Positions 2,847 through 64,000 of a stretch of 64,000 bases of DNA are shown piece by piece. Numbering within the stretch: position 1 is the stretch's first letter; every line of letters begins with the position of its first letter. A model generated the notes under the pieces. The model searched no databases and was not told where the DNA came from. It saw only the letters and a program-made list of their open reading frames with translations. The stretch is taken from assembly GCF_011769985.2 (NCBI RefSeq), contig NZ_CP039734.2, positions 558,001 to 622,000 of the forward strand, read 5' to 3'. This stretch comes from Sulfurospirillum diekertiae. GTDB lineage: Bacteria > Campylobacterota > Campylobacteria > Campylobacterales > Sulfurospirillaceae. The translations under genes and the position numbers were made by a program.

Positions 2847-2868
2847 GTGTTACATGTAAGGCTTATGA

Positions 2869-2874
2869 TATAAT
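2869..2874 (+). promoter_or_regulatory. extended -10 promoter of pyk
   Basis: TGATATAAT (extended -10, TGnTATAAT), about 54 nt before the pyk start. The iterated palindrome TTACATGTAA at 2850-2859 falls between the expected -35 and -10 positions, so any protein bound there would affect this promoter. Confidence 0.55.
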
Positions 2875-2927
2875 TTGGTAACAATAAAGTGATACAATTG
2901 AACTCATTTTGAAAGAAGGAACTAAAG

Positions 2928-4373
2928 ATGGATAAAAAGACAAAAATCCTAGCAACCGTTGGCCCAGCAAGTGATAGTGTAGAGATTTTAGAAGGATTAA
3001 TTAATGCTGGCGTAAACGTATTTCGTCTCAATTTTAGCCATGGTACTCATGAGTATCATGCAAGTACGCTAGCAAAAATAAGAGAAGCAGAAAAAAATGC
3101 ACAGAAAAAAGTAGGTGTTTTACAGGATATTTGTGGTCCTAAAATTCGTGTTGGAAAGCTTGAAGAAGATTTTTACCTTGAAGAGGGAGATAAGCTTTAT
3201 TTCACCAAAGAGCAGATTGTTGGTAAAAAATTAGAAGAGGGTAAGTATGAGCTCTGCATCAATCAGCCTCAAATCTTAGATATGCTTAAAGAAGATGAAT
3301 ATATCTATTTGTATGATGGTAATATTCGTGCACGTGTGATTGAAGCAGGCGATAAAATTGTCACTGAGATTGAAAATAGCGGTAAACTTTCTTCTAATAA
3401 AGGCGTTAATTTTCCAAATACTGTTATTAATATTGAAGTTATCACACCAAAAGATGAAGCGGATCTTTTGTGGGGTGCTCAGCATGGTGTTGACTTCGTA
3501 GCCGTCTCTTTTGTCCAAAGTGCTAAAGATGTTTTACATGCAAGAAGAATTCTTAAAGAGCATAAATCTCGTGCACATATTTTTGCAAAAATTGAGAAGT
3601 TTGATGCTGTTGAAAAAATTGATGAAATTTTAGCTGTAAGTGATGGCATTATGGTCGCTAGGGGAGATCTTGGCATAGAAGTACCTTACTATAAAGTACC
3701 TAGTATTCAAAAAAGGTTAATTGCCAAAGCAAATGCTGCTTCAAAGCCCGTTATTACTGCAACGCAAATGCTTCTTTCCATGGCTGAAAAAGAGATGGCA
3801 ACACGCGCTGAAATTAGTGATGTCGCAAATGCCGTTCTTGATGGAACCGATGCGGTCATGCTTTCCGAAGAGAGTGCAATTGGCAAAAATCCAATTCATG
3901 TTGTTGAAGTCATGGCCAATACGATTAGAGAGACTGAGATGATTTATCCTTATGGTAAATTTGAGGTTTATCCTTTCTTGGACGAAACAGATATCATCTC
4001 CTCATCTACCGCACGTTTGGCAGATCGTTTAGGTGTTGAAGCGATGATCTCACTCACCAGTTCAGGAAAATCTGCTAAAAAATTGGCACGATATCGTATC
4101 AAAGCGGATATTTATGCTGTAACGCATGATGAACGTACAGCACGTTCGTTAACGATTGCATGGGGTATCAAACCAATTATGAATATAGAAGCAAGTAATC
4201 TTAATATGATGCTTGGTAAAACACTTCAAAAAGGAATTGAGCGAGGATTGATTGATAAAGAAAAAACCTATATCGTAGCAGCGGGTTATCCAGCAGGCGT
4301 TGAAGGTAGTACTAACTTTATTCGCATCTTAAAAAAGGCTCAAATCGAATATTATACTGATATGGTCTTGTAA
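2928..4373 (+). CDS. pyk: pyruvate kinase
   Basis: Converts phosphoenolpyruvate and ADP to pyruvate and ATP in the cytoplasm. The full 481-aa length fits bacterial pyruvate kinases. It starts MDKKTKILATVGPAS, has the catalytic-lysine region IFAKIEKFDAVE (about 222-233), the metal-binding MVARGDLGIEVPY and the KPVITATQML motif. ATG is preceded by GAAGGA. It has its own extended -10 promoter and is followed by a strong intrinsic terminator, so it is monocistronic. Confidence 0.97.
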   Translation: MDKKTKILATVGPASDSVEILEGLINAGVNVFRLNFSHGTHEYHASTLAKIREAEKNAQKKVGVLQDICGPKIRVGKLEEDFYLEEGDKLYFTKEQIVGKKLEEGKYELCINQPQILDMLKEDEYIYLYDGNIRARVIEAGDKIVTEIENSGKLSSNKGVNFPNTVINIEVITPKDEADLLWGAQHGVDFVAVSFVQSAKDVLHARRILKEHKSRAHIFAKIEKFDAVEKIDEILAVSDGIMVARGDLGIEVPYYKVPSIQKRLIAKANAASKPVITATQMLLSMAEKEMATRAEISDVANAVLDGTDAVMLSEESAIGKNPIHVVEVMANTIRETEMIYPYGKFEVYPFLDETDIISSSTARLADRLGVEAMISLTSSGKSAKKLARYRIKADIYAVTHDERTARSLTIAWGIKPIMNIEASNLNMMLGKTLQKGIERGLIDKEKTYIVAAGYPAGVEGSTNFIRILKKAQIEYYTDMVL

Positions 4374-4379
4374 GTTTTT

Positions 4380-4414
4380 AATATAGCCAAAAAGCTTTGC
4401 TTTTTGGCTATATT
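4380..4414 (+). terminator. terminator hairpin after pyk
   Basis: A perfect 16-bp stem (4380-4395 with 4399-4414) closed by a TTT loop. The 3' arm contains five T in a row, and an AT-rich tract follows. The stem is long and symmetric, so it could also stop transcription from the other strand. Confidence 0.85.
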
Positions 4415-4574
4415 AGGTATTTTTGTAATGTGACAGTTCTCTCTAAAAAGCCAAACTATCGCATTTTCTGTCGAACTGTGACAAACTAAGTGGGTTTTAT
4501 TTTAATATTACCTTAAAGAAGGTTTAGGTAGAATCCATACCTCAAAATAAATCTCTCCCAAGAAGGACATACGC

Positions 4575-5320: not shown

Positions 5321-5403
5321 CTCAAAAATAAAAATACCTCTAATGATTATACATTTACATGTAATGATTAAAGGTATTATTCTACATACAAAAGGTTTTT
5401 ACG

Positions 5404-6510: not shown

Positions 6511-7258
6511 GGTTGGCACACATGTGCTTAGCGATCAAAACGGTTTATGTGAAGAGCGTATTTTAAATTTAGTTGAATTTTTAGTAGCGCTCATGAAAAA
6601 CCATGAAGTGATTTTAGTCTCTTCGGGTGCTGTAGCTGCTGGGTACTCTATTTTAAAACTTGATAAAAAAATGCTTCATAACCGCCAAGCAATCGCCGCA
6701 GTAGGGCAACCACAACTGATGGCAACCTATAACGAAAAATTAGAAAAATTTGGGAAAAGTGGCGCACAACTTCTTTTAACGGCAGATGACTTTGACTCAC
6801 GAAAACGCTGTTTTCATGCTAAATGTACCATTGATACCCTTCTTGATAATGGTATTCTCCCTATCATTAATGAGAATGATGCAACAGCGACGGAAGAACT
6901 TGTTTTTGGAGATAATGATCAACTTTCTTCCAGAGTTGCCTACTATTTTGGGGCAGACATGTTAATCTTGCTCTCCGATATTGATGGCTACTATGATAAG
7001 GATCCTCATAAACACGCGGATGCAAGCATGCGTAAAATTGTCCATGAGATTGATCCAGCAGAACTTGAAATGGAAAAATCAACCAATTTTGCGTTTGCAA
7101 CGGGCGGTATTGTCACCAAACTTAAAGCCGCAGACTTTTTGTTAGAGCGTAAAAAATCGATGTTTATTGCCAGTGGTTTTGATTTAAGCGATGTCAAAAG
7201 TTATATGATAGAGGGCATTCATAAAGGTGGAACACTCTTTACATGTAAAACGCTGTAA
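6491..7258 (+). CDS. proB: glutamate 5-kinase
   Basis: First step of proline synthesis: phosphorylates L-glutamate. 255 aa, with the kinase domain only; the PUA domain found in many ProB proteins is absent, as in Campylobacter. The N terminus [15 protein letters not shown] fixes the start at ATG 6491, overlapping the obgE end. Motifs: [20 protein letters not shown], GTDNDxLS-like [12 protein letters not shown], and [10 protein letters not shown]. The last codons contain a TTACATGTAA copy (7239-7248) read as TCK. Confidence 0.93.
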
Positions 7259-7333: not shown

Positions 7334-8251
7334 ATGCGCATAGTCTTTATGGGAACCCCTGCTTATGCAACAACGATTTTAGAAGCACTTTTAAAAAACT
7401 CTGACTGTGAAGTTATACTATTAGTAACACAAGAAGATAAGCCTGTTGGACGAAAACAGACGCTCACTCCTCCTCATATCAAAGCATGGCTTTTAGAACA
7501 CGATTTACATGTAGAAATTTATCAGCCAAAATCTTTACGCACAGAAGAAGCTCACATCAAAATAGCGCAATTAAAGCCTGATTATATTGTAGTGGCGGCA
7601 TATGGGCAGATATTACCTAAAAACATTCTTTCCATTGCTCCTTGCATTAACTTGCATGCATCGCTACTCCCAAAATATCGAGGTGCAAGTCCAATTCAAT
7701 CAACACTGTTAGCCAATGAAACCTATGCAGGTGTGACCTCTATGCTTATGGAAGAAGGTTTAGATACAGGTGCCATGTTGGGTTTTTCATATCTCAAAAT
7801 TAAACCAGAGCATAATGCTCCTATGCTGTTTGATCTCCTTGCGGATGCCGCAGCCAAGCTAATCATTATGACACTTCAAAATTTCCCCTTGCTGGCTCCA
7901 CTGGGTCAAGTAAGCGCTAATGCAACCCATTGTAAAAAGATCAAAAAAGAAGATGGCCTTGTATCATTCGACCAAAGTGCACAGTCTATCGTTACTCGGT
8001 ACAAAGCACTCACCCCTTGGCCTGGTGTATTTTTAGATTCAGGATTGAAACTTCTTGATCTTGAGTTGTACAGTGATGGAGAAGAGACTCTTTCAGGCGT
8101 TATTAAAGAGATCAAAGCTGAAGGTGTTGTTGTTACATGTAAAAAGGGTGCATTGTTGCTTAAAACACTTCAGCCTATCTCCAAAAATGCAATGAATGCA
8201 CTGGATTATATTCGAGGTAAAAGGTTAAATAGTGGTTATACATTGGTTTGA
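7334..8251 (+). CDS. fmt: methionyl-tRNA formyltransferase
   Basis: Formylates initiator Met-tRNA. 305 aa starting MRIVFMGTPAYATTIL; ATG 7334 is preferred over an upstream in-frame GTG because GAAGGA lies 6 nt before it and the protein then starts at the Rossmann fold. The catalytic signature NLHASLLPKYRGASPIQ and the downstream EEGLDTGAML are present. Overlaps birA by 20 nt. Holds one perfect iterated palindrome (8133) and one near copy (7505). Confidence 0.95.
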   Translation: MRIVFMGTPAYATTILEALLKNSDCEVILLVTQEDKPVGRKQTLTPPHIKAWLLEHDLHVEIYQPKSLRTEEAHIKIAQLKPDYIVVAAYGQILPKNILSIAPCINLHASLLPKYRGASPIQSTLLANETYAGVTSMLMEEGLDTGAMLGFSYLKIKPEHNAPMLFDLLADAAAKLIIMTLQNFPLLAPLGQVSANATHCKKIKKEDGLVSFDQSAQSIVTRYKALTPWPGVFLDSGLKLLDLELYSDGEETLSGVIKEIKAEGVVVTCKKGALLLKTLQPISKNAMNALDYIRGKRLNSGYTLV

Positions 8252-8867
8252 TACTTTAGATTCTACTCATCAATATCTCCTTAGCTCTCTTCGCGAAGGT
8301 ACACTTCTTGCACCATGTGCCATTGGAGCTACCAAACAGACAAATGGTATTGGGAGCAGAGGTAATAGTTGGATTGGTGAAGTTGGAAATTTTTTTTTCT
8401 CATTTTGTGTAGAAGAGAAACAGTTACCTCCTGATTTACCATTAGCTTCTAGCTCTATCTATTTTTCTGCTTTAATGAAGCAGGTTTTAGAAGAGCAAGG
8501 CTCGAAAATATGGTTAAAATGGCCCAATGATTTTTACTGTGATACGAAAAAAATTGGAGGGATGATTACCACGAAAACGGGTGCAAATATTGTCTGCTCA
8601 GTAGGACTCAATATTAGCATTTCACCTAAAGATTTTGGAACTTTAGATATCATCGTCACACCAAATGCTTTAGCCAATGATTTAATTCAAAAGGTTGAGG
8701 AAAACATATCGTGGAAGAAAGTTTTTAGTAAATATAAGATAGAATTTGATCTAAATCGAAATTTTTCTTTCCATTTAGATGGCAAATTGGTCTCGTTACG
8801 TGATGCGATATTGTGTGATGATGGCTCTATAGAGCTAGAAAATAAAAAGGTGTACAGTTTACGATGA
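8232..8867 (+). CDS. birA: biotin--[acetyl-CoA-carboxylase] ligase
   Basis: Attaches biotin to the carboxyl-carrier protein, the partner of AccD encoded in this window. 211 aa and catalytic domain only: the DNA-binding helix-turn-helix of E. coli BirA is absent, so it is not a repressor. Motifs: IGSRGNSWIG (the GRGRxGRxW loop, diverged), LKWPNDFY and KKIGGMIT. Starts at GTG inside the fmt end; stop overlaps parA by 4 nt (ATGA). Confidence 0.9.
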   Translation: MVIHWFDTLDSTHQYLLSSLREGTLLAPCAIGATKQTNGIGSRGNSWIGEVGNFFFSFCVEEKQLPPDLPLASSSIYFSALMKQVLEEQGSKIWLKWPNDFYCDTKKIGGMITTKTGANIVCSVGLNISISPKDFGTLDIIVTPNALANDLIQKVEENISWKKVFSKYKIEFDLNRNFSFHLDGKLVSLRDAILCDDGSIELENKKVYSLR

Positions 8868-9649: not shown

Positions 9650-9653
9650 TGTG

Positions 9654-10508: not shown

Positions 10509-10558
10509 TAATATTAGTTGTTTTGGTTAATTTAATAAACGATTTTCCTTTGCTGTGT

Positions 10559-10564
10559 TACAAT
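10559..10564 (+). promoter_or_regulatory. extended -10 promoter of the ATP synthase operon
   Basis: TGTTACAAT (TGn plus TACAAT) about 87 nt before the first atp gene, in the 142-nt parB-atp gap. The upstream sequence is T-rich, as in Campylobacterota promoters. No terminator is evident after parB, so some readthrough is likely. Confidence 0.5.
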
Positions 10565-10650
10565 TCGCGCAAAATTTTGATACAGCAATCTTGTTTGTGC
10601 TAAAAAATCTTAAAAATTGAGTCTGATCTCGAGCTAAAGGAGCAAGAAAT

Positions 10651-11073: not shown

Positions 11074-11086
11074 AAGGAGTATGTGG

Positions 11087-12132: not shown

Positions 12133-12167
12133 TAATACATAGATAAAAGAAAGTTAAGGAGTAATGT

Positions 12168-13685: not shown

Positions 13686-13694
13686 GGATAAGCT

Positions 13695-14579: not shown

Positions 14580-16010
<1,431 letters not shown>

Positions 16011-16029
16011 GAAGCGATAAGGTTAAAAA

Positions 16030-16425: not shown

Positions 16426-16430
16426 ATCTT

Positions 16431-17018: not shown

Positions 17019-17019
17019 C

Positions 17020-22490: not shown

Positions 22491-22547
22491 ATGTTTACCT
22501 TGTAGTAAGTCTGCAAAGTTTACATGTAAAATATAAAAGGTTAATCA

Positions 22548-23471
22548 ATGAATAATAGTATCTTTATATTCCCTGGACAAGGCAGCCAAAAAGTTGGTAT
22601 GGGAAAAGATTTTTATGATCATTCATCCATTGCAAAAGAGATGATTGAAAAAGCAAGCCAGAGAGTAAGCTTTGACTTTACAACGCTTCTATTTGAAGAA
22701 AATGATAGATTAGATCAAACAGAGTTTGCACAACCTGCTATTTTATTAGTCAGCCTTATTGCTCATCGTCTTTTTGTGGAACAGTGTAAAGTGGTGCCTA
22801 AAGTAGTTCTAGGTCACTCCTTAGGAGAGTTTTCTGCTTTGAGTGCAGCTGGTGCTATGGATTATTTGGATGCTGTAGAGCTTGTACACCAACGCGGTCT
22901 TTTGATGAAAAAAGCATGTGAAGGCATTAATGCTGGAATGATGGCGCTTCTTGGCTTAGATGATGCAAGTGTTGAAAATCTTACATGTAAAGAGCGTGAA
23001 CTGGGTAAAAAAGTTTGGGCAGCAAATTACAATGGTGATGGACAAATTGTGATTGCAGGTAATCGTGATGATTTAATATCTTTAGAGCCACTTTTTAAAG
23101 AGGCAGGTGCTAAAAAATCAGTGCTACTCCCTATGTCTGTAGCAAGTCACTGTCCACTTTTAAGTTCGGCTCAATCAAAACTTGAAGTTTATTTAGACCA
23201 ATGGCTTAAAGAGAGTTTCACAACGCCTATTATCTCCAATGTAACCGCATCTGAATACCAAAGCAAAGCTGAGGCGAAAATACTTCTATCCCAGCAGCTT
23301 ATTTCACCTGTAAAATATAAACAATCCATTTTACATGTAGAATCATCAACAGACGCTTTTATTGAATTTGGTGGCTCAGTGCTTAAAGGTCTTAATAAAC
23401 GGATCACTCAAAAACCAACACATAGTATTACTGATATGAAAAGTTTAGAAGAAGTGCTAGCACTTTTGTAA
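22548..23471 (+). CDS. fabD: malonyl-CoA:ACP transacylase
   Basis: Loads malonyl groups onto acyl carrier protein for fatty-acid synthesis. 307 aa with FPGQGSQKVGMG at the N terminus and the nucleophile motif GHSLGEFSAL (Ser about 92). ATG follows AAAAGG; one TTACATGTAA lies 19 nt upstream of the start (22520) and another is inside the gene (22981). Confidence 0.96.
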   Translation: MNNSIFIFPGQGSQKVGMGKDFYDHSSIAKEMIEKASQRVSFDFTTLLFEENDRLDQTEFAQPAILLVSLIAHRLFVEQCKVVPKVVLGHSLGEFSALSAAGAMDYLDAVELVHQRGLLMKKACEGINAGMMALLGLDDASVENLTCKERELGKKVWAANYNGDGQIVIAGNRDDLISLEPLFKEAGAKKSVLLPMSVASHCPLLSSAQSKLEVYLDQWLKESFTTPIISNVTASEYQSKAEAKILLSQQLISPVKYKQSILHVESSTDAFIEFGGSVLKGLNKRITQKPTHSITDMKSLEEVLALL

Positions 23472-25028: not shown

Positions 25029-25661
25029 TTAAAATCCTTCCAATAAAATCTTCCATAGCACATTGATCTGTTCATCATCCAGTGCTATGGTACTTTGTTC
25101 TTCAAAAAGTTGTTTTACATGTAAAAGATCAAAGGTTTGATTCCAAGCACAGGTTTTATGTGCAGGTAAAAAACCTCGAATAAGTGTTAAATCCTCTAAG
25201 ATAGGTTCTTCGCAGTTAAAACAGATAAAATCATCATGTAATCTTCCTTCATATATTAAAAGTTTAATATAGGCTTCTATAGCGATACGTTTAGGATTTT
25301 GTATCTGCCAAATAGATGAACTTAGTTCTAAAAGATCAAAATAAAAACTATCAATTGTTCCTATGTCTTTGAGATGTGTATAAAAAAGCCTGATAAAGGG
25401 TTGCCAGACAAGCATACGTTCTCTTTGATTATTCCAAGGCGTTCCTAAATGCATAATAGAACGAAGTTGCGGCAGCGTGGATTTGAGAGAGGGGATGGCT
25501 TCAAAATCTATTTTATAACCTAAATGAATTGTGGAATGGCGAGCACCGTAAAATCTATAAACCGTTTTAATGCTATTTTGCGTTAAAATGGTGACAATTA
25601 AATCTTCGTCTTTTACACGATTCAAATTGATAATATATCCTTGCATAAGGAATTTTAGCAT
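25029..25661 (-). CDS. recO: DNA repair protein RecO
   Basis: Loads RecA with RecR at gaps. 210 aa, shorter than E. coli RecO but typical here; N-terminal OB-fold starting MLKFLMQGYIINLNRVKD and a C-terminal zinc-like CxxC (CFNCEEP). ATG 25661 has AGGA 9 nt upstream; ATG 25646 (MQGYIIN) is an alternative. Holds one iterated palindrome read as LLHVK. Confidence 0.8.
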   Translation of the reverse strand: MLKFLMQGYIINLNRVKDEDLIVTILTQNSIKTVYRFYGARHSTIHLGYKIDFEAIPSLKSTLPQLRSIMHLGTPWNNQRERMLVWQPFIRLFYTHLKDIGTIDSFYFDLLELSSSIWQIQNPKRIAIEAYIKLLIYEGRLHDDFICFNCEEPILEDLTLIRGFLPAHKTCAWNQTFDLLHVKQLFEEQSTIALDDEQINVLWKILLEGF

Positions 25662-30313: not shown

Positions 30314-31696
30314 ATGCAAAATTTTATTAATGAAGAGAGATGCGAGCCTAGAAAACGCTCAAGCGGAGATAGAGTCAAAGATTTTAAAGAAATTTATGAA
30401 GTTTTGAGTAAAGAAGACGCCTCTTTGCAAGCGGATCGTTGTATCCAGTGTGGTGATCCTTTTTGTCATAGCAAATGCCCTTTGCATAATTACATTCCTT
30501 TTTGGCTCAAAGCAACCAGTGCCATGAAGCGCGATCTTGCGTTTAATCTCTCCAATGAGAGCAATCCGTATCCTGAGATTACAGGGCGTATTTGTCCACA
30601 AGATCGTTTATGCGAAGGGGATTGTACACTGAACGACGGGCATGGTGCCATTACGATTGGCGCGATTGAGACCTTTATTTCTGAAGAGGGCTTTAAAAAA
30701 GGTCTTAAACCTACTTTCCCAGGTATTACGACCAAGAAAAAAGTCGCTATCATTGGTGCGGGACCTGCGGGTCTTGCATGTGCAACTTATCTTCTAAGAG
30801 CGGGTATTGCCGTCAGTATGTATGAGAGACAAAATAGGGCTGGTGGACTTTTAACGTATGGGATTCCTGGTTTTAAGCTTGATAAAGAAGTCGTAGCACG
30901 TCGTGTGAGATGGCTTCAAGACGCAGGTATGACGTTACATGTAAACACAAATGTCGGTAAAGACATTAGCTTTGATGAGATTGCCCATAGTCATGATGCA
31001 CTCTTTTTAAGCATAGGAGCTGAAAATCCTCGCAAAGCCAATGTTACCAATGAAAATGCAAATGGTGTCTTTATGGCAATTGATTTTTTACGCTCTATTC
31101 AGAAAAAACTTTTCAGCGAGAGTTACGATAAAAAATTTGAAGTCAAAGGTAAAAATGTCGTGGTCATTGGTGGTGGTGATACGGCAATGGATTGTTTACG
31201 AACGTCCATTCGTGAAGGTGCCAAAAGTGTGACTTGCCTTTATAGACGCGATAAATACAATATGCCAGGCTCAAAAAAAGAGTTTAAAAATGCCATTGAA
31301 GAGGGTGCAGAGTTTGTCTATAACGTTACGCCAAAAGAGATTTTAGTCAACTCTGATGGACAAGTGATCGGGATTGATATGAATAAAACCATCCTAGGTG
31401 CGAAAGATGCCAACTGCCGTCAATGTGTTGAAATTGTTAAAGGTGGCGAATTTAGGGTAGATGCGGATGTCATTATATTTGCCCTTGGATTTACTCCAGC
31501 CGTTCCGACTTTCTTAGCTGAAAATGGCATTGAAGTTTCAAAAACAGGCGTCATTGTGGTTAATAGTGAATATCAAACAACGAAATCAGGTGTTTATGCA
31601 GGTGGGGATTGTAAGCGGGGTTCTGACCTGGTTGTTACGGCAGCAAAAGAGGGTAAAGAAGCCGCATTGCACATGATTAAAAAATTGCTTGGATAA
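30314..31696 (+). CDS. gltD: glutamate synthase small subunit
   Basis: NADPH-dependent flavoprotein that feeds electrons to GltB. 460 aa: N-terminal Fe-S region (RCIQCGDPFCHSKCPLHNYI, ICPQDRLCEGDC), an FAD-binding GAGPAGLACA and an NAD(P)H-binding GGGDTAMDCLR. Starts 1 nt after gltB. An intact gltD favours a gltB that is or recently was functional. Confidence 0.96.
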   Translation: MQNFINEERCEPRKRSSGDRVKDFKEIYEVLSKEDASLQADRCIQCGDPFCHSKCPLHNYIPFWLKATSAMKRDLAFNLSNESNPYPEITGRICPQDRLCEGDCTLNDGHGAITIGAIETFISEEGFKKGLKPTFPGITTKKKVAIIGAGPAGLACATYLLRAGIAVSMYERQNRAGGLLTYGIPGFKLDKEVVARRVRWLQDAGMTLHVNTNVGKDISFDEIAHSHDALFLSIGAENPRKANVTNENANGVFMAIDFLRSIQKKLFSESYDKKFEVKGKNVVVIGGGDTAMDCLRTSIREGAKSVTCLYRRDKYNMPGSKKEFKNAIEEGAEFVYNVTPKEILVNSDGQVIGIDMNKTILGAKDANCRQCVEIVKGGEFRVDADVIIFALGFTPAVPTFLAENGIEVSKTGVIVVNSEYQTTKSGVYAGGDCKRGSDLVVTAAKEGKEAALHMIKKLLG

Positions 31697-31699
31697 TAC

Positions 31700-32425
31700 G
31701 TGAGCTTTATTGAATCCGCACTGCAAGCGAACAGAGAGCTCTTTCAGCTTTTACATGTAAAAGGGTTGGAAGAGTCTCATTATCAATCTTTTGCGCTTGG
31801 AGCAGGAGGAGATGTGAGTTCAGGCATTGATCTGGTGGCAGAAAAAATTTTTATTCATTACCTTTTGCCGTTTGGAACGATTGTATCCGAGGAGAGTGGG
31901 GTGATTGAAAATCCTACTTCCTCTATTCGTATTGTACTTGACCCCATAGATGGCAGTGATAATCTGCTTTCAAATATTCCTTATTATGGCACCTCTATTG
32001 CCTATTTTGAAAATGATAAATGCACTAAAGCAGTCATTACTAATCTTGCCAATGGCGATATTTTTATCAAAGATGAAATGGGTTTGCGCCGTGGAAAATT
32101 AGAAAAAAATACCTTGAGTCTGGTTACATGTAATGCTTTTTCAAAGGTGGGAATTTTTGAGCGATCTTACTGTTCACTTAAGGTACATGACACGCTCAAA
32201 ATTGCTAAAATTAAGTACCGTTCTCCTGGTGCTTTTGCCCTCTCTCTAGCTTATGCACACGATGTTTCGTTTGTTTTGTATGAAGGTAAAATGCGCACGT
32301 ATGATATAGAAGCGGGGCTCTTTATGTGTGAGGATCTTTACACGTTTTGTGAAGGCGATATTTTCCTTGTAAGCAAAGATAAGGAAATTTTTGCTAAAAT
32401 AAAAAGTTTATTTATAAGCAATTAG
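31700..32425 (+). CDS. inositol monophosphatase family phosphatase
   Basis: Mg2+-dependent sugar/inositol/nucleotide phosphatase of the IMPase/CysQ fold. 241 aa with VSEESG and DPIDGSDNLLSNIPYYGTSI (metal-binding DPIDGSxN). GTG start 3 nt after gltD. Substrate cannot be told from sequence. It carries two TTACATGTAA copies (31751, 32124), the densest in any gene here. Confidence 0.8.
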   Translation: MSFIESALQANRELFQLLHVKGLEESHYQSFALGAGGDVSSGIDLVAEKIFIHYLLPFGTIVSEESGVIENPTSSIRIVLDPIDGSDNLLSNIPYYGTSIAYFENDKCTKAVITNLANGDIFIKDEMGLRRGKLEKNTLSLVTCNAFSKVGIFERSYCSLKVHDTLKIAKIKYRSPGAFALSLAYAHDVSFVLYEGKMRTYDIEAGLFMCEDLYTFCEGDIFLVSKDKEIFAKIKSLFISN

Positions 32426-35212: not shown

Positions 35213-36147
35213 TTCATGAGATAGACTTTAGTAAGGGCATTTTAGCCCTTGCACCTCTTGCTGGTTTTACCGACCTTCCATTTCGTTCTGTTGTTAAAAA
35301 ATTTGGGGCAGATGTCACTTTTTCTGAAATGATCAGTGCCAATGCGCTGCGTTATGGTTCCGAAAAAACCTTTAAAATGCTCACCAAATCGCCTTTAGAA
35401 ACACCCTACATTGTACAAATTGCAGGATCTGATTTAGTGTCGATTAAAGAGGCTGTGCTAGCCCTGAATGATATTGAGGGTATTGATGGGATTGATCTAA
35501 ACTGTGGATGTCCTGTGCCTAAGATTATCTCCCAAGAAGCAGGTTCATCACTGCTACTGAACCTTCCGCATATGCAAAAAATCATTGAGACGATTAAGAC
35601 TTATTCTAACAAACGCTACACCAGTGCTAAAGTACGACTAGGCTTTACGACCAAAATTCCTGAAGAGATTGCAAAGGCATGTGAGAGTGCTGGAGTTGAT
35701 TTTATGAGTATGCACGGACGTACACGTGCAGGAGCGTATAAAGCGGAAGTTGACTATCAAGCCATAGCGCGAGCACGTGCGTCTGTTAAAATCCCTCTGA
35801 TCGCCAATGGCGACATCGTTAGCTATGAAAAAGCGTTACATGTAAAAGAGGTCACAGGATGCAACAGCTTGATGATTGGGCGAGGTGCTGTTGGAAATCC
35901 ATGGATTTTTTACCAAATCAAAAATGAACTGTCTCATGTGGAAAAAACAAAAATTTTAGAAATAGTGCTAGAGCATTATGATGCCATGATAGATTTTTAC
36001 GGTGAAAAAGGACTTGCTATTTTTCGTAAGCATTTACATACGTACTCAAAAGGGTTTCGTGAAGCGTCTGAATTTAGAGATAAAATTAACCGCATTGAAG
36101 ATGAAGTGCTTATGCGAGAAGCGATTGCAACTTTTTTTGCTCAATAG
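35209..36147 (+). CDS. dusB: tRNA-dihydrouridine synthase
   Basis: FMN enzyme that reduces uridines in the tRNA D-loop. 312 aa: APLAGFTDLPFRSVVKKFGA, the catalytic-Cys motif DLNCGCPVPKI, KVRLGF and SMHGRTRAG with GNGDI-type IANGDIVS. Starts inside the previous stop (ATGA). DusB assignment rests on general similarity; Dus would be the safe name. One LHVK palindrome (35836). Confidence 0.9.
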   Translation: MIHEIDFSKGILALAPLAGFTDLPFRSVVKKFGADVTFSEMISANALRYGSEKTFKMLTKSPLETPYIVQIAGSDLVSIKEAVLALNDIEGIDGIDLNCGCPVPKIISQEAGSSLLLNLPHMQKIIETIKTYSNKRYTSAKVRLGFTTKIPEEIAKACESAGVDFMSMHGRTRAGAYKAEVDYQAIARARASVKIPLIANGDIVSYEKALHVKEVTGCNSLMIGRGAVGNPWIFYQIKNELSHVEKTKILEIVLEHYDAMIDFYGEKGLAIFRKHLHTYSKGFREASEFRDKINRIEDEVLMREAIATFFAQ

Positions 36148-36503: not shown

Positions 36504-37428
36504 GGTAAATTGATGATATTAAGATAGTGTAAAAGGTTGCTGATAAGAATAAAAAAGGGTATGAAAATCAGCGATGTAAAAAAAACAAGTACGGTGACAT
36601 CCAAAGGTCTGCACTCATACAATGCCGCTAAATTGACGTTGGTAACAGCCAGAGGCACAACCAGTTCAATAAAAATAAGTGTGGCAACCATGGGTTCTAA
36701 ATTAAGCAAGCCAAACAAGATAACGCCTGCAATCAGAGGGGTAATAATGAACTTAATAAGGCTTACATGTAAAAGAAGTTTGGTGTTAATATCGCGCAAT
36801 TTAATATTGTAAAGGTACATACCAAAAATGACCAGTTGAATAACCATCGTGCAGTATGCGCCCATTTCCAAAGGCTTTTGCATCGCAGGATGAAGATGAA
36901 TGTCGAAAATATTCATAAAAAGTGCAATGCTAGCAAACCAGATGACCGGTAATTTCAATGTTAAAAAGTGATTGTTTGATGCTAAAGTTACCTCTGGAGT
37001 AGAAAAAGACACCGAGGGTATAAACGATAAAAACATTGGTGATGTTGATCATACTCATGTATAAAATAGAGTCATCGCCAAAAAGTGCGATACCTAAAGG
37101 AATACCAAGATTGCCCGTATTGCCAATGATAACACAGATCGTGATGATGGATTTTTCTTTAATGTCCTCTTTAAAGAAAATCAATGCAATCACGGAACTG
37201 ATGAGGACACACATTAAAGAGATAGGCTAAATACCAAAAAGGCGCTTGAAGCAGTGAAAAATCAATGGGTCGGCTTGAGAGTCCCCAGAAAGAGAGCATT
37301 GGCTGTAAAAAGTAGATGGAAAGAAGGATCATTCCTTTTTCATTCATCTCCTCTTTAAGCATTCGTTTTGCCATAAAGCCTAGCAAAATGAAGGCGTAAA
37401 TAGACAAAATGGAAATAGCTATGGTCAT
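36500..37428 (-). pseudogene. AEC (auxin efflux carrier) family transporter, two frameshifts
   Basis: Three overlapping pieces in different frames together match the intact AEC protein at 43980-44903 almost end to end. Piece 1 (37428-37171) ends after LLQAPFWYLAYLF; comparison with LLQVPFYYVLIS in the paralog shows about 22 extra nt near 37217-37238. Piece 2 (37214-36930) carries the IGNTGNLGIPLGIALFG motif and leaves frame near 36950, where a 2-nt loss (or 1-nt gain) replaces VKLPVIW. Piece 3 (37036-36500) completes the C-terminal membrane helices. Family members are 10-TM exporters. Confidence 0.85.
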
Positions 37429-38756: not shown

Positions 38757-38797
38757 TAACATCTTACGTTTACATGTAAAGATTTTAAAGGGTGATA

Positions 38798-40003: not shown

Positions 40004-41180
40004 GTTGCACAAAGCGTTGTTTGAGAGAATACGCATTCATTTTCTCTTTAACCATCCTTTTTTGTCAGTCCTTGCGCTCTCCGTTCCGACACGCTATATC
40101 ACGAATGCCAAAAGTGCGTTTCAAACGGATGGCTTTTCGCTGAGCATTGATGAAGAAAAACTCTCACGTTACAGCGAAGAGGAGATTATTTATCTCTACG
40201 CACACACGTTGTTGCATATTGTTTTAAAGCACCCAGCACGTCGAAAAGCGCGTGAAGAACTCGTTTGGAATCAAAGTTGTGACGTGGTTATCAACCTTAT
40301 TTTAAGCGAGTTTGACCACGTGGGTGTAATGCCAAGTGATGAGATTTTCGATGCCGATATGAGCGGTCTCAGCGTGGAAGAGGTGTACGAGATCCTTTAC
40401 AAAGAGCAAGAGAAACAGCCCAGTTCTGAGAAAGATGAAAACGAAAAGCAGAAGTCGTTTATTTACGATGAAACCAAGCACGACCTTGAAAGCTCCAACG
40501 AGAGTCTGCAAAGCTCCGAGGCGAAGGAAAAGCTTGATAATATCATCATTCAAGCACTCAGCATTGCCAAGCAAGCGACGAAAGCCTACGACAGTTTGCG
40601 CATTGAAATCGACACTTTACTCAAACCAAACATTGACCTCTACGATGTTCTTAAAGAGTTTTTGATTACAGCACTTTTTGAAAAAACCGTGACGTATAAC
40701 AGGCCTAATCGTAAGTATTTTCAACAAGGCATTTACCTGCCCAGTACGCACAAAAGTAAGGAGCAGTTGGAGCTTATTATCGCGATTGACAGCTCTGGAA
40801 GCGTGAGTTTAGACGAGTATCAAACCTTTTTGGGCATCGTCAAAGAGGTGTGCGAATCGTTTTACGAATACAGCGTGACGCTGTTGCCCTTTGATTTACA
40901 TGTAAAAGAAGAGCTCATCGTCAGTTTTGATAGTTTCAATCCAATCAACTCTGAAAATCTCTTTATTCCCAAAAGCGATGGCGGGACGAATTTTAATGCC
41001 GTTTTGGATTTTATCGATACCCATTATGCTATTCGAAGCGAGCAGTTGTTGATGGTACTTAGCGATGGCGAGTTTGACATTGGGCGTTCTTTGGTGTGCG
41101 AGACGCTTTTTGTTTTGAGTCAGAAAAAAAATGGTGCAAAGTTTGAGCGGTATGGAAGAGTTATCCAATTTAACTTATAA
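39984..41180 (+). CDS. VWA-domain protein with DUF2201 putative metallopeptidase region
   Basis: 398 aa. N-terminal half resembles DUF2201, with a HTLLHIVLKHPARR helix (HxxxH-like, possible metal site) at about residues 75-90; an acidic/Ser linker (about 145-180); a C-terminal VWA-like domain with complete MIDAS motif DSSGS, GGTNF and LSDGEFDIG. Starts 20 nt inside the MoxR gene. It is the presumed substrate-binding partner of the AAA+ ring. One LHVK palindrome (40896). Confidence 0.85.
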   Translation: MATTSSELHKALFERIRIHFLFNHPFLSVLALSVPTRYITNAKSAFQTDGFSLSIDEEKLSRYSEEEIIYLYAHTLLHIVLKHPARRKAREELVWNQSCDVVINLILSEFDHVGVMPSDEIFDADMSGLSVEEVYEILYKEQEKQPSSEKDENEKQKSFIYDETKHDLESSNESLQSSEAKEKLDNIIIQALSIAKQATKAYDSLRIEIDTLLKPNIDLYDVLKEFLITALFEKTVTYNRPNRKYFQQGIYLPSTHKSKEQLELIIAIDSSGSVSLDEYQTFLGIVKEVCESFYEYSVTLLPFDLHVKEELIVSFDSFNPINSENLFIPKSDGGTNFNAVLDFIDTHYAIRSEQLLMVLSDGEFDIGRSLVCETLFVLSQKKNGAKFERYGRVIQFNL

Positions 41181-41965: not shown

Positions 41966-42529
41966 ATGGACGAAGCGTTTGATCTGAAGCATTTTGAGAC
42001 GTTTTTAGGCGAATCAAACAGTGAAGGTGGCCATTGGGATAAGATCAAAAAGCGTACGGCAACCCTGTTTCAAGTGCTTATTGATGGAGATTTAAAAGAG
42101 TTGGTGTTTGTACTGAAGCATTATCCGCAATATACGGAACTGGTGTGTGAGCATTTTCGTTATTTGTACAACTATTCCGAACAGAGTGCGGACATCTTTG
42201 CGGCATCGAAGCTTTTGTACATGAGTGAAGCGTACCACCAAAAGCAATTTGTGCGCAATCTTTTGCGCAAACTTGAAAAGATCGAAACGTATGAGCTTTC
42301 ACAGATTAAAACCTTGATTCATTTTTTGGTAGAGCATCAAGAGCGCTTGCATCCGATCATCATCAGTTACTATAAAGCGGAGATTGTAGCGCATTTGAGA
42401 AGTGGCAATTACCATCTGTTACAGCAAAAAATCATCGAAAAAGAGCTTTTAAAATTACATGTAAAGAGCGATTTTGACTTTGGTGCGAAAGATAGAGACG
42501 CCTCGTTAGACATTCCTTACATGGTTTAG
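41966..42529 (+). CDS. helical protein, paralog 2 of MoxR-operon pair
   Basis: 187 aa, related to the 242-aa protein upstream but lacking its N-terminal ~75 residues. Helical, no membrane segments. AAAGG ribosome-binding site belongs to hairpin element B. One LHVK palindrome (42455). The stop is 13 nt before the sigma-54 promoter of the nifO-like gene, so the operon probably ends here or reads on. Confidence 0.7.
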   Translation: MDEAFDLKHFETFLGESNSEGGHWDKIKKRTATLFQVLIDGDLKELVFVLKHYPQYTELVCEHFRYLYNYSEQSADIFAASKLLYMSEAYHQKQFVRNLLRKLEKIETYELSQIKTLIHFLVEHQERLHPIIISYYKAEIVAHLRSGNYHLLQQKIIEKELLKLHVKSDFDFGAKDRDASLDIPYMV

Positions 42530-42587: not shown

Positions 42588-43013
42588 ATGTTTTCAACGA
42601 CGCCAAAGCAGGTCATCTTTTACGAAAAAATAGGTTGTAGCGGCAATGCACGTCAAAAAGCACTTTTACGTGAATACGGTGTTTCATTTGAAGTGCGAAG
42701 CCTTTTGGATACGCCTTGGGATGTACCCACATTGGAGTCTTTTTTTCACGGATTAACTCCCCAAGAGATGCTCAACCCTTTTGCGCCACAACTCAAAGAG
42801 GGAACGTTTACATTAGAAGATTACACCAAAGAGAGTCTTATCGAAAAGATGGTGAGCGAGCCTATCTTAATCCGTCGGCCACTCTTACAAATAGGTGATG
42901 TCAAGCTCTGCGGTTTCGATATTCCACGGCTAAATTTGCTTTTACATGTAAAGATGCCAACACCCCAAAATATCAACGCCTGTTTAAGCAGTGACGCATG
43001 CAGCAATGCTTAG
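42588..43013 (+). CDS. nifO: ArsC/Spx-family thioredoxin-fold protein, NifO-like (nitrogenase-associated)
   Basis: 141 aa thioredoxin-fold protein: IFYEKIGCSGNARQKALLREYG (given here as IFYEKIGCSGNARQ), then RRPLLQIGDVKLCGFD. Arsenate reductases of this fold have Cys12 in CxxxxxR; here the single CSGNARQ Cys and the TPQEMLNPFAPQLKEG region match the nitrogenase-associated subfamily (NifO). ATG has AAAGGAG 5 nt upstream, and a sigma-54 promoter precedes it. A role in oxygen or metal handling for nitrogenase is possible; ordinary arsenate reduction is not excluded. Confidence 0.7.
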   Translation: MFSTTPKQVIFYEKIGCSGNARQKALLREYGVSFEVRSLLDTPWDVPTLESFFHGLTPQEMLNPFAPQLKEGTFTLEDYTKESLIEKMVSEPILIRRPLLQIGDVKLCGFDIPRLNLLLHVKMPTPQNINACLSSDACSNA

Positions 43014-43979: not shown

Positions 43980-44903
43980 TTAGAGTGAAACGATATGAAA
44001 ATAGTGTAAAAGATAGCTAATAAACATAAGATACGGGATGAAAATAAATGAAGTAAAAAAAACCAATGAAGCTACGTCAACAGGCTTGCAGTCGTAGATG
44101 GCGGCGACATTGATATTATTGAGTGCCAAAGGCATGATAAGCTGAATCAGTAAGATGGCTGCGACTAAGGGTTCGAGTGGAAGAAGATAAAAGAGTATCC
44201 ACGCACTGAGTAAAGGTGCGAAGATAAACTTCACAAGGTTTACATGTAAAAGCAATTTATAATTGAGCGCTTTGATTTTGACATTGCACAGATACATACC
44301 AAAAACGATGAGTTGAAGCACGATCATACAGTATGCACCCATCTCCAATGACTTAAAAATCGTCGGTGGAATCTGAACATGCGCAAAATTGAGCGCGAGG
44401 GCGATGAATGACGCCCAGATGACAGGAAGTTTGACGATGTTGAGCAGTGAAGCTTTGAGATTGGATGTGCCACCAGAGTAGAAGAAAACGCCCAAAGTGT
44501 AAGTCATAAAGGTATTGGCAACGCTGATCATACTGGTGTAGATGATCGATTCCTCACCAAAGAGCGCAATGCCCAAAGGAATGCCAAGATTGCCCGTATT
44601 GCCAATGGCGACAGCAATGCTCATGATCGCTTTTTCTTTGTCATCGCTAAAAAAAAGTCGCGCAAAAATATAGCCAAGAAAGATCGTTATACATGAGATC
44701 AGCACATAATAAAACGGTACTTGCAGTAAAGAGAGCGTAATTTGTTTAGTAGAAAGCCCCCAAAAAGAAAAAATGGGGTGTAGAAAATAGACGGTAATAA
44801 TGCTCATGCCGCGCTCTTGTATCTGCTCTTTAAAGATTTTTTTCGCGATAAACCCAAAGAGAATAAAAACATAAATCGACAAGATCGCAACAACGATATT
44901 CAT
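43980..44903 (-). CDS. AEC (auxin efflux carrier) family transporter, intact
   Basis: 307 aa, about ten membrane helices in two bundles; the signature IGNTGNLGIPLGIALFGEESI lies near the middle (written here in two parts: IGNTGNLGIPLG and IALFGEES). Likely exports organic acids or similar solutes; the substrate is unknown. Closely related to the broken gene at 36.5-37.4 kb. A TTACATGTAA lies 12 nt upstream of its start (44916) and another inside (44240). Confidence 0.85.
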   Translation of the reverse strand: MNIVVAILSIYVFILFGFIAKKIFKEQIQERGMSIITVYFLHPIFSFWGLSTKQITLSLLQVPFYYVLISCITIFLGYIFARLFFSDDKEKAIMSIAVAIGNTGNLGIPLGIALFGEESIIYTSMISVANTFMTYTLGVFFYSGGTSNLKASLLNIVKLPVIWASFIALALNFAHVQIPPTIFKSLEMGAYCMIVLQLIVFGMYLCNVKIKALNYKLLLHVNLVKFIFAPLLSAWILFYLLPLEPLVAAILLIQLIMPLALNNINVAAIYDCKPVDVASLVFFTSFIFIPYLMFISYLLHYFHIVSL

Positions 44904-45010
44904 GACAAAGACTCTTTACATGTAACGATTTTTAAAAAGGTATTGTAACGAAAATAAGAGCCAAAAGATTTACTCTTTCGTGCTACAATGAAATAAAAAA
45001 AGAAGACACT

Positions 45011-45493: not shown

Positions 45494-45564
45494 AACGCTT
45501 TACATGTAAAGATAAAAACCTAGAAAAAGTAGCCTCATTTTGTTGACGTGAAATAACCGCTGTT

Positions 45565-49296: not shown

Positions 49297-49332
49297 GTTT
49301 ACATGTAAAGACAAAATAAAATCAAAACGGGC

Positions 49333-50770: not shown

Positions 50771-50823
50771 CTAAACCCTTTTACATGTAAAATAATTTTA
50801 GCAGTATCTTAACGCAAAAAATA

Positions 50824-50860: not shown

Positions 50861-52741
<1,881 letters not shown>

Positions 52742-53006: not shown

Positions 53007-53132
53007 ACGGTAAACAATTAAAAAAGAATTTGATTATACAGAGCTATGCAAAGAGGTGACTTAAGAAAAAAAGTTGGATTGGAAAAAGTAAGAATTTAGT
53101 AAAGATACGTTTCGATTGTTTACATGTAAAGC

Positions 53133-53549: not shown

Positions 53550-53750
53550 TGCTAACCCTTTAATATGCGCTATTGGCACATTATAGATTAATATAATTAA
53601 ATTATGTATTAAAGAAAATACTCAGCAGAAATGTATTTTCAAAAAGGGATAATTCTTTACATGTAATCACTTTTTATACCAATAGTGGCGATAATTTTTT
53701 TGAAAAACGCTACAATGACGCTTCGATTTTTTACAAAGTAAGGGAATTTT

Positions 53751-55094: not shown

Positions 55095-55130
55095 GGTCTT
55101 TACATGTCAAAGTGTTTACATGTAAAGACC
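55095..55130. terminator. compound hairpin built from two iterated palindromes
   Basis: Arms GGTCTTTACATG (55095-55106) and CATGTAAAGACC (55119-55130) pair over 12 bp around a 12-nt loop. The arms contain a near copy TTTACATGTCAAA and a perfect TTACATGTAA (55116). It lies between the permease and the TauE-like gene. It may terminate permease transcription, though it has no T-run on the plus strand. Confidence 0.5.
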
Positions 55131-58782: not shown

Positions 58783-58873
58783 AATATGTTCCCTTTAGTA
58801 ACGTTTTTTAGTGGAAAAAATATCACAGTACCTTTTACATGTAAATCTACATAATATAGACATATCTTTTCAT

Positions 58874-61797: not shown

Positions 61798-61828
61798 CCA
61801 ATGAGGAGCTCTCCTCATTGGATTTTTA
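61798..61828 (+). terminator. terminator after second symporter gene
   Basis: Perfect 10-bp stem CCAATGAGGA/TCCTCATTGG with GCTC loop (61798-61821), then ATTTTTACT. Stops the symporter transcript before the HDOD gene. Confidence 0.88.
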
Positions 61829-61840
61829 CTTAAACCTCGC

Positions 61841-61846
61841 TATAAT
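61841..61846 (+). promoter_or_regulatory. -10 box before the HDOD gene
   Basis: TATAAT 27 nt before the ATG, directly after a terminator. Confidence 0.5.
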
Positions 61847-61872
61847 CAAACAAATTAATAAAGAGAGCTGAC

Positions 61873-62682
61873 ATGCTAGAAGAAATTGCTGAGCGCATCA
61901 AAGCACTTCCTCCCCTCCCTAAAAGTTTTCATCAGATGACGCTCATTTGCCAAGACCCAAATGCGAGTTCAGCAGACCTTGCACGGGTCATTGAAGAAGA
62001 TCCTATGATGGTTGCTAACTTATTGAAAGTCGCTAATTCTCCTTTATATAACTTTAGGCGAGAGATTAAAAGTGTACTACAAGCCGTGAGCCTTTTTGGA
62101 ATGTCTACTACACGTTCTTTAGTGACGGATATGTCGATTAAAAAATTGTTACAAGTCGATATGGCACCATATGGTGTTACGCCTGAAGAGTTTGCTGCTA
62201 TCTCAGGATTGCAAAGCGCCTTGATGGTTCAGTGGTACAGCAAGATTGATGCAACGAAAGCAGATTTTCTTTTTCTGGCGGCACTTTTGCAAGAGACCGG
62301 TAAAATTCTGATTGCCGATGAAATTGTCAAAAATGATGAAATGTATCAATTCCGTTCTGAAATTGAAAATAGTAACAATATCGCTGATGTTGAAAAAATG
62401 TTTGTCAGAATGACGAGCAGTGAAGTGGCGGGGCTTATTTTTAAACATTGGAAATTTGAAGATAAAATGGTACACGCGATTGAATACGTTGATGCTCTTG
62501 GGGTTGCTCCTTTAGACATTCGCCCTTATGCGGTTGCGCTAAAAGTGGTTAAAACGGCTATCCCTATTAATGCACCACTCAGTGAGCGAAGTATCAACCT
62601 TGCTTTGAATATTCTTGAAAAAGAAAAACTTGATAAACAAGCATTTCTTGAGGTTGTGACAAAACTCAAAGAATACTACTAA
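61873..62682 (+). CDS. HDOD-domain signalling protein
   Basis: 269 aa, one HDOD domain (about residues 10-205): IAERIKALPPLPKSFHQM, NLLKVANSPLYNF, VSLFGMSTTRSLV. HDOD proteins are catalytically dead HD phosphodiesterase relatives that act as scaffolds in signalling. The polA gene follows with a TTACATGTAA (62687) between. Confidence 0.85.
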   Translation: MLEEIAERIKALPPLPKSFHQMTLICQDPNASSADLARVIEEDPMMVANLLKVANSPLYNFRREIKSVLQAVSLFGMSTTRSLVTDMSIKKLLQVDMAPYGVTPEEFAAISGLQSALMVQWYSKIDATKADFLFLAALLQETGKILIADEIVKNDEMYQFRSEIENSNNIADVEKMFVRMTSSEVAGLIFKHWKFEDKMVHAIEYVDALGVAPLDIRPYAVALKVVKTAIPINAPLSERSINLALNILEKEKLDKQAFLEVVTKLKEYY

Positions 62683-62707
62683 CTTCTTACATGTAAAAGG
62701 TATTTCC

Positions 62708-64000
62708 GTGAAAATTCTTACAATTATTGATACATTTGGTTTCTTTTTTAGGAACTACTATGCGCTTCCACAACTGCGCAATACTCAAGGTTTTCCTACA
62801 GGACTTCTCACAGGATTTGCCAATTTTATTTATGCGATTAAGAATGAGCACGATACCGATTATCTACTGTTTGCGCTCGATAGTAAAGGCAAAAATTTTC
62901 GTCATACACTAGACCCTAACTACAAAGCAAACCGTCCCGAAGTCCCCGAAGATTTAAGGCGTCAACTTCCTGTAGCTATCTCTTGGATTGAGAAAATGGG
63001 CTTTAAATGCTATGCGCAAGAGGGGTATGAGGCGGATGATGTCATCGCATCTGCAGTACGTTTTGCGAAAAGCCATGATATTAAAGTGCGTATTGTCACC
63101 CACGATAAAGATTTGTATCAACTCATTGATGATGGCATGGTAGTGATTTATGATCCGATGAAAAAGATGGAGATTGATACGGAAAAATGTTTTGAAAAAT
63201 TTGGTGTTTATCCTAATAAAATTAATGAATATTTAGCGCTCGTGGGTGATGTTGCCGATAATATTCCCGGTGTAAAAGGCATTGGCCCAAAGGGAGCTAA
63301 AAAACTTTTGGATGATTATGGAACAATCGAAAATGTGTATGAAAACCTTGAACGTATAGGGAACCCTCGTGTTCAAGCGATGCTCGAAGAAGGACGTGAA
63401 AAAGCCTTTTTAAGCAAACAACTGGTTCGTCTGGATGATTCGCTTAACATCGCTGATAAGTTCGATGCATTTCATTTTCCTTGCGATAATCCCCTCATCA
63501 ATATAACCGATGAACTTGAAAAGTATGAGCTACGTCATATGCTCTCTCGTGTAAGAAATGAGTCTTTACATGTAAAGTCAAAAGAGGCGCCAAGTAACAG
63601 TTTTAATGCAATTTTATTGGATGATACCAAGATGTTGTTTAACATCATAGAAGGCATTGAAGAAGACGCTATAGTCGCGTTTGATACAGAGACAAATGCA
63701 TTGGATGCATACAATGCAAAGATCGTTGGATTCTCTTTTGCAACTAATACGCATGAGGCATATTATGTGCCTATCGGACATCACTATTTGGGAGTAGGCG
63801 ATCAAATTGCATTAGCCGATGCGAAGAAAGCACTGGAAGCACTTTTTACTCACAAAATTGTTGGACAAAATCTCAAATTTGATTTGGCTGTCATTGAAAA
63901 TAATTTTGGCATTAAAGATGTTGCTATTTATGCGGACACGATGCTTCTTGCATGGCTTCTTAATCCTGAAACCAATGTCGGTCTTGATACGCTCTCCCTT
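62708..64000 (+). CDS. polA: DNA polymerase I (partial, runs off right edge)
   Basis: 431 codons are present and open at the window end. 5' nuclease domain: LTIIDTFGFFFRNYYALP, FALDSKGKNFRH, YEADDVIASAVRFA, VGDVADNIPGVKGIGPKGAKKLL; then the start of the 3'-5' exonuclease domain (VAFDTETNALDAYNAKIVG, given as FDTETNALDAYN). GTG start with AAAAGG 7 nt upstream. The C-terminal polymerase domain lies outside. One LHVK palindrome (63566) between the domains. Confidence 0.96.
   Translation, partial: MKILTIIDTFGFFFRNYYALPQLRNTQGFPTGLLTGFANFIYAIKNEHDTDYLLFALDSKGKNFRHTLDPNYKANRPEVPEDLRRQLPVAISWIEKMGFKCYAQEGYEADDVIASAVRFAKSHDIKVRIVTHDKDLYQLIDDGMVVIYDPMKKMEIDTEKCFEKFGVYPNKINEYLALVGDVADNIPGVKGIGPKGAKKLLDDYGTIENVYENLERIGNPRVQAMLEEGREKAFLSKQLVRLDDSLNIADKFDAFHFPCDNPLINITDELEKYELRHMLSRVRNESLHVKSKEAPSNSFNAILLDDTKMLFNIIEGIEEDAIVAFDTETNALDAYNAKIVGFSFATNTHEAYYVPIGHHYLGVGDQIALADAKKALEALFTHKIVGQNLKFDLAVIENNFGIKDVAIYADTMLLAWLLNPETNVGLDTLSL

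Follow-up and report, generated by a model that had tools for sequence, protein, structure and literature searches.

The question raised by this 64,000-nucleotide stretch of the Sulfurospirillum diekertiae chromosome (the whole of which we call the window) is what a short perfect palindrome, TTACATGTAA, is doing there in so many copies. We counted 28 exact copies spanning positions 2850 to 63575, against a mean of 0.07 and a maximum of 2 in dinucleotide shuffles; no other 10-bp palindrome is as frequent in the window, the two runners-up having 3 copies each. The initial annotation had reported an iterated and often extended palindrome; count and shuffles confirm the iteration, the extended word TTTACATGTAAA occurs 16 times, and the base composition it gave is near that measured (A 0.313, T 0.301, C 0.174, G 0.212). 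Its argument that symmetry speaks against strand-biased roles also holds: the word reads identically on both strands and matches neither Chi nor the FtsK-orienting polar sequences (KOPS), which are strand-oriented and non-palindromic. Our data show that TTACATGTAA is a chromosome-wide duplex-DNA site lying amid helically phased, AT-modulated DNA, and suggest a genome-wide 'self' or chromosome-handling signal.

The enrichment extends well beyond the window, as the genome-wide count proposed at the outset reveals: the genome, 2,777,717 bp in two contigs, has 1220 copies versus 8 of the reversed word, and 371 of them fall in an 824-kb chromosome sample that includes the window. Counting the word in 198 relatives as well, we found 49–1496 copies in each of 22 congeners and 6–733 in 20 genomes from other genera of the family (6–23 in genus g4, save two genomes at 97 and 87). 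Among the 12 genomes of another family (f17), three have 367, 340 and 48 copies and the remaining nine at most 10, one species of genus g21 accounting for the 340 and six others of that genus having 0–10; the 144 genomes of the rest of the order have at most 9 each. Genome G036 has 22 perfect copies, yet 358 one-mismatch copies versus 65 in the control. The UvrA encoded in the window shares 91 and 98% identity with those of two Sulfurospirillum sp. metagenome-assembled genomes (MAGs; L102 and L130) and at most 80% with those of the other 78 named loci listed, including Sulfurospirillum MAG L108 (79%). This identity points to a Sulfurospirillum-type campylobacterote, in line with the phylum that the initial annotation had in mind. 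The word is present in 7 of these 80 uvrA loci, more than once only in L102 (14 copies), the Campylobacterales MAG L104 (9) and L130 (3), and the 3.6 kb of L108 contain none. Shuffles, palindrome ranking and the comparison with the reversed word rule out chance or base composition as the cause, and the 1220 genomic copies together with the enriched relatives rule out an enrichment limited to the window.

Site density across the genus is associated with one enzyme. The S. diekertiae genome encodes two related D12 adenine methylases, one of 325 aa (C1:2481820-2482794) and one of 346 aa on contig C2 (54%); in a split defined in this analysis, type A comprises enzymes at 62% or more to the former and type B those at about 46–56%. 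The D12 domain (PF02086) and its catalytic motifs are present: all 9 enzymes that we aligned share DPPYN and, in motif I, the same D, F and two G residues. Type A occurs in 14 of the 23 genus genomes, our own included (G000, G003, G004, G005, G006 in two pieces, G007, G008, G012, G013, G014, G015, G016, G019 and G022), and these carry 869–1496 sites. The counts without type A are 840 in G001 (86% complete), 605 in G002, 49 in G009, 412 in G010, 168 in G011, 934 in G017 (99% complete), 608 in G018 (77% complete, density intermediate), 238 in G020 and 411 in G021. The methylase lies between a response-regulator domain protein and a transglutaminase-like protein, the gene for the latter adjoining it in 8 of 8 compared loci (own included) and that for the former on the other side in 5 of 8. 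G002, G009, G010, G011, G020 and G021 keep both neighbours with the methylase missing between them; a type-B enzyme is encoded at another place in G002 and G021, and other D12 proteins in G009 and G011. The contig of G018 ends at the methylase locus, and the transglutaminase-like neighbour was not found in G001 or G017.

On a tree of the single gene uvrA, methylase-less genomes stand on several branches. A phylogenetic regression on this tree relates type-A presence to an additional 289 sites/Mb (p 2.4e-5, n=22, G018 being left out for lack of a full UvrA), and to 313 sites/Mb in the 18 genomes at least 90% complete (p 3e-6); the corresponding Mann-Whitney p values are 6e-4 (22 genomes) and 1.3e-4 (18 genomes). 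One-mismatch copies follow the same division, their excess relative to perfect copies being 0.12–0.25 in 13 type-A genomes, 0.42 in G007, 0.46 in G018 and 0.7–3.4 in the six genomes with the kept but empty locus. These six congeners have a lower site density and more sites wrecked by a single letter. Searches for other methylases found no N6_N4 enzyme (PF01555) in our genome or in 10 of 19 others searched, and no MT-A70 match (PF05063) in 55 genomes; 14 controls likewise gave none, so the latter profile is not informative. A related D12 methylase on S. diekertiae plasmid pSDIE1 (L348) is annotated in small pieces and appears broken.

Single sites are held in place over considerable divergence. 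We aligned the 28 sites of the window to G015, G008, G013, G014 and G009, leaving out 1, 7, 6, 9 and 7 unaligned sites respectively. At 92% identity (G015) 26 of 27 aligned sites are intact, where 49% of all aligned 10-mers are identical; the values are 19/21 (one miss being a gap) and 22% for G008 (84%), 20/22 and 22% for G013 (84%), and 18/19 and 14% for G014 (79%). Nearly all alignable sites are thus kept in place across type-A species. In G009 (82%), one of the genomes without type A, a single site of the 21 aligned survives intact and 14 differ from the word at 3 or 4 letters, where 18% of aligned 10-mers are identical; a 100-kb sample of that genome yielded no replacement palindrome. The site just past uvrA (site 26 in Table 1) has an equivalent at +49 to +56 in the type-A genomes that cover the place, our own included, matching exactly in 10 of 13 and missing by a single letter in 3. 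It is also present in G001, and G017 has one at +5; none was found after uvrA in G009, G020, G021, G002, G010 or G011, of which G010 and G011 retain a perfect site upstream of the gene.

The core is near-absolute in the S. diekertiae genome: one-letter variants are close to control (8–12 versus 3–9 at the other four positions) apart from those at the outermost letters (36 versus 8). The preferred context is CTTTACATGTAAAG, with A next to the core (T on the other side) in 81% of sites and then G (C) in 51%, and this preference varies by genus, CTTACATGTAAG being the form in samples of G023 and G138. Left and right bases beyond the core pair about as often as shuffled ones. Flanks that do not covary indicate a site read as duplex DNA, and on these grounds we rejected an RNA hairpin as the main role. 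A role in transcription termination, or as another signal in RNA at the ends of genes, would fit the accumulation of sites in convergent gaps described below and the 8 of 366 sites whose arms are at least 6 bp longer; with 232 of the 371 sampled sites within called genes, and flanks that pair about as well as shuffled bases, we consider it very improbable.

Around the dyad, A+T content oscillates with a period of ~11.2 bp, AA/TT in phase and GC/CG in antiphase. The amplitude is 0.086 at 8–40 bp, 0.048 at 40–75, 0.026 at 75–110 (best period 12.25), 0.022 at 110–145 and 0.011 at 145–190 (standard errors approx. 0.004–0.005). Phasing reaches 110 bp in genic and intergenic sites alike, and at 110–145 bp genic sites alone show it clearly (0.031 vs 0.013 ± 0.007 intergenic). 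Because the palindrome has no orientation we pooled both flanks of each site, and the symmetry of the profile is therefore by construction; the correlation of left and right A+T per site, +0.13, speaks against a one-sided feature. Over 15–100 bp the sites give 0.052, versus 0.005 at control places that match them in strong/weak pattern (4474 half-flanks); the reversed 8-mer ATGTACAT of this genome, with 30 half-flanks, shows 0.033 in antiphase. The phasing recurs in G004 (0.074 ± 0.010) and in ten pooled loci, eight belonging to type-A congeners and two to MAGs (0.070 ± 0.006), and is weaker in G023 (0.050, 40 half-flanks) and G024 (0.067, 20 half-flanks). At 33 places of site loss in G009 the phase mostly persists (0.049 ± 0.010 vs 0.060 in the source genomes), which shared ancestry may explain. 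We rejected the idea that phasing is inherent to the 14-mer itself, as it is absent in 80 viral loci among the matches listed: those with at most 2 sites give an in-phase value of −0.019 ± 0.007 (168 half-flanks), and the 7 with at least 3 sites give 0.019 ± 0.012 (52 half-flanks).

These properties bear on the proposal made by Elhai for HIP1, the highly iterated palindrome of cyanobacteria, namely that methylation-biased mismatch repair makes and keeps the palindrome as a ratchet that needs no reader of its own. The methylase association across congeners is compatible with it, as is the concentration of one-letter deviations at the outermost letters, a trait also described for HIP1 (PMC4390886, excerpt). 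However, such a ratchet should create sites at many places, whereas ours stay put over large divergence; it leaves phasing over more than 100 bp unexplained, and ACATGT is not enriched outside the sites. Outside the 10-mer that word is in fact neither avoided nor enriched (18.1 per 100 kb vs 15.7 for TGTACA, in the 824 kb), and an early impression of avoidance disappeared on counting there. We regard the ratchet as a quite unlikely explanation.

Sites lie both in genes and in gaps, as the initial annotation had stated, but it had missed that gaps, and above all convergent ones, are favoured. With genes called by a simple gene caller, 139 of the 371 sampled sites are outside called genes, although gaps make up 10% of the sequence. 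Among gaps of 15–100 bp a site is present in 29 of the 47 between convergent genes, compared with 24 of the 170 between codirectional and 4 of the 17 between divergent genes (convergent vs codirectional, Fisher p 3e-10). The genic sites occupy 185 of 847 genes, with 140 in frame 0, 82 in frame 1 and 10 in the third frame, which introduces a stop codon. The spacing of the first 100 chromosomal sites fits an exponential (coefficient of variation 1.01, Kolmogorov-Smirnov p 0.63), by which we rejected even spacing; pairs at most 60 bp apart number 22 versus 8.4 expected in the 824 kb. Close pairs prefer a spacing of 21–22 bp (6 of the 22), about two turns of the 11.2-bp rhythm.

Long phasing and convergent-gap bias make a chromosome-topology site the main rival explanation: a preferred site for wrapping or cleavage by DNA gyrase, or for a clade-specific nucleoid protein, where transcription-driven supercoils collect. 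The Escherichia coli gyrase motif is symmetric, covers 130 bp and has GC content periodic at 10.75 bp, and gyrase cleavage sites are enriched downstream of highly transcribed operons (excerpt of PMC6379681); our sites resemble it in the phased base content of their flanks and in their bias to gene ends. Helicobacter pylori is called a pathogen without topoisomerase IV in the title of one paper (PMC3325230, excerpt). Against this, our 10-bp core is near-absolute while the gyrase motif is degenerate, the period is 11.2 instead of 10.75 bp and the reach longer; site loss accompanies absence of the methylase, the G009 sample has no replacement palindrome, and phasing was not detected at the sites of G138 and G159. 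Moreover, a 14.4-kb part of the window (8143-22519) is site-free that, judged from gene sizes and order, looks like the region of an ATP synthase operon. We consider the topology explanation rather unlikely, even as the foremost competitor.

Taken together, these data predict that TTACATGTAA is probably a genome-wide protein-binding site linked to the methylase. The specific reading we favour, to which we give a probability a little below 0.4, is a HIP1-like system in which the sites are bound by a putative dimeric protein, are linked to the methylase and serve as a self-DNA mark for uptake. A putative dimeric DNA-binding protein would read the sites; the methylase would methylate the adenine of the central CATG, thereby marking or keeping them; the mark would most likely act as a self-DNA signal for natural transformation, and the phased flanks could ease bending of the DNA at entry. 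We favour uptake for three reasons: Campylobacter jejuni, of the same order, marks its own DNA for uptake with a short methylated word; lineages can lose the system; and mobile DNA contains few sites. Concerning the latter, contig C2 has 4 sites versus 17.5 expected, and two integrase-bearing stretches have 0 in 27.8 kb versus 12.2 expected, although these were picked for being site-poor, and site-poor stretches are not always mobile DNA (L098 holds polysaccharide genes, L099 the secY/murE region).

Several observations weigh against the favoured reading. G017 (934 copies) and G001 (840) lack the type-A methylase without lower density and with a low one-mismatch excess (0.29 and 0.15), no D12 methylase at all was found in G017, and G159 (340 copies) and G026 (567) likewise have none; with four genomes site-rich in its absence, the methylase cannot explain everything. 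Conversely, genomes with 1–23 copies can carry type-B enzymes (G025, G031, G033, G035, G037, G040, G075 and G089), two placements on the UvrA tree are weakly supported, and no phasing was detected around the sites of G138 (0.018 ± 0.010) and G159 (0.014 ± 0.011). A point for CATG as the target is that five of 11 phage records with a homologue carry the name 'ulcer associated adenine specific DNA (methyltransferase)', which we take to be that of the H. pylori CATG methylase HpyIM; other plasmid and phage homologues accompany AlwI- and FokI-type systems or bear the names LlaI and FokI, which leaves CATG uncertain as the target. The ComEC domain is found in 52 of 55 genomes, ours included, and is equally common in site-poor ones; competence genes therefore do not tell the two groups apart, and we rejected ComEC as a marker of site-rich genomes. 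Finally, we know of no uptake signal that is a palindrome. Part of this evidence would suit an account in which the methylase is a passenger whose absence coincides with loss of a separate reader gene: the four site-rich genomes without the methylase agree with such an account, and our profiling took in no more than five families or proteins. The association nevertheless survives phylogenetic correction on the single-gene tree, and the presumed methylation target sits at the dyad, so we judge the passenger account unlikely. The initial annotation's suggestions are in part supported: a methylation link by the association across congeners, with G017, G001, G159 and G026 as exceptions, and a protein site by the non-covarying, helically phased flanks.

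HIP1 has, to our knowledge, no agreed function. The comparison with it drawn at the outset stands for iteration and outer-letter deviations, but the words differ and the methylase trait is partly shared. Both HIP1 (GCGATCGC) and TTACATGTAA are perfect palindromes iterated genome-wide far above expectation, with deviations mostly at the outer letters; methylases for the inner words are generally present in HIP1 genomes, where our association has exceptions, and HIP1 too has some rich genomes without a methylase and is rare or absent in others (Elhai 2015, PMC4390886, excerpt). In contrast, HIP1 contains GATC and CGATCG, whereas ours is an AT-rich 10-mer of Campylobacterota with CATG at the dyad, phased flanks and a convergent-gap bias. 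HIP1 methylases seem needed in some strains (excerpt of PMC4390886), while ours is absent from several lineages and is therefore not essential. In its workings and main traits the system is HIP1-like, but it is not HIP1: it is an independent iterated palindrome in a phylum other than cyanobacteria. Among the literature matches listed, judged partly by title and start of abstract, none describes TTACATGTAA or an iterated palindrome in Campylobacterota.

The DNA uptake sequences (DUS) of Neisseriaceae and the uptake signal sequences (USS) of Pasteurellaceae are likewise short words iterated about every 2 kb. The word is not a known DUS or USS: it is a different word, a perfect palindrome, with longer phased flanks, although its flank preferences differ between genera a little like dialects. 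Pasteurellaceae USS resemble it in having AT-rich regions at helical spacing, about two turns downstream, thought to aid kinking (PMC12616744, excerpt). A bolder reading, which we consider rather unlikely, is a self-DNA system unlike either: a methylated palindrome centred in some 200–300 bp of phased, bendable DNA, in ~1,200 individually selected copies per genome, with a putative dimeric receptor, flanks that differ like dialects from genus to genus, and loss, more than once, along with the methylase. The CtsM motif of C. jejuni is RAATTY, and we do not know of it as an iterated one. It is a different word from ours; the likeness lies in the shared order and in a short methylated word as self mark for uptake, methylation here being a proposal. 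DNA with this short CtsM-methylated motif, printed as RATTY, is needed for the first uptake step (PMC8468864, excerpt). What such a palindrome does can be tested directly in culturable bacteria, given natural loss lineages, a candidate methylase whose locus is fixed, sites conserved one by one and helical phasing.

Table 1. The 28 exact copies of TTACATGTAA in the window, with their placement and remarks on conservation
Site	Position	Placement	Frame	Remarks
1	2850..2859	gap, 3 nt past stop codon		intact in G015, G008, G013; unaligned in G014
2	5355..5364	gap
3	7239..7248	within called gene	1
4	8133..8142	within called gene	1
5	22520..22529	gap		ends 14.4-kb site-free stretch
6	22981..22990	within called gene	1
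7	25115..25124	within called gene	0
8	30935..30944	within glutamate-synthase-small-subunit-like gene	0
9	31751..31760	within called gene	0
10	32124..32133	within same gene as site 9	1
11	35836..35845	within called gene	0
12	36763..36772	within called gene	0	sole intact site of 21 aligned in G009
13	38770..38779	divergent gap
14	40896..40905	within called gene	0
15	42455..42464	within called gene	0
16	42942..42951	within called gene	0
17	44240..44249	within called gene	0
18	44916..44925	divergent gap
19	45500..45509	convergent gap
20	49299..49308	gap, 2 nt past stop codon		unaligned in all five compared genomes
21	50781..50790	gap
22	50861..50870	first TTA of site is thiC stop codon, minus strand
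23	53120..53129	gap
24	53657..53666	divergent gap
25	55116..55125	gap, uvrA 847 bp downstream of site
26	58835..58844	gap, 52 nt past uvrA
27	62687..62696	gap, 4 nt past stop codon
28	63566..63575	within called gene	0	one letter off in G015; intact in G008, G013, G014

Regarding the site-poor DNA, L091:1-15083 holds integrase, FtsK-like and nickase-like genes and L096:1-12738 an integrase and anti-restriction genes, both site-free. Contig C2 (L082, L083 and L190; 39.9 kb, GC 0.36), which carries the type-B methylase, is perhaps a plasmid; the reading frame after that methylase looks transposase-like by eye only.

Other words are enriched in some relatives. In G025 (L048-L052), which has only 7 copies of TTACATGTAA, TATCATGA occurs 38 times versus 11 expected and ATCATGAT 23 times versus 7.6 expected, both likewise centred on CATG. 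Within genus g21, the non-palindromic 8-mer CTCACGCA occurs 28 times in 100 kb of G058 (L058-L062; 1.5 expected, reversed control 2) and 8 times in 20 kb of G114 (L079; 0.4 expected); G159 has 0 copies in 100 kb and carries the TTACATGTAA palindrome instead. With its preference for the G-rich strand, 19:9 in G058 and 6:2 in G114, TGCGTGAG is a Chi- or KOPS-like candidate in this genus.

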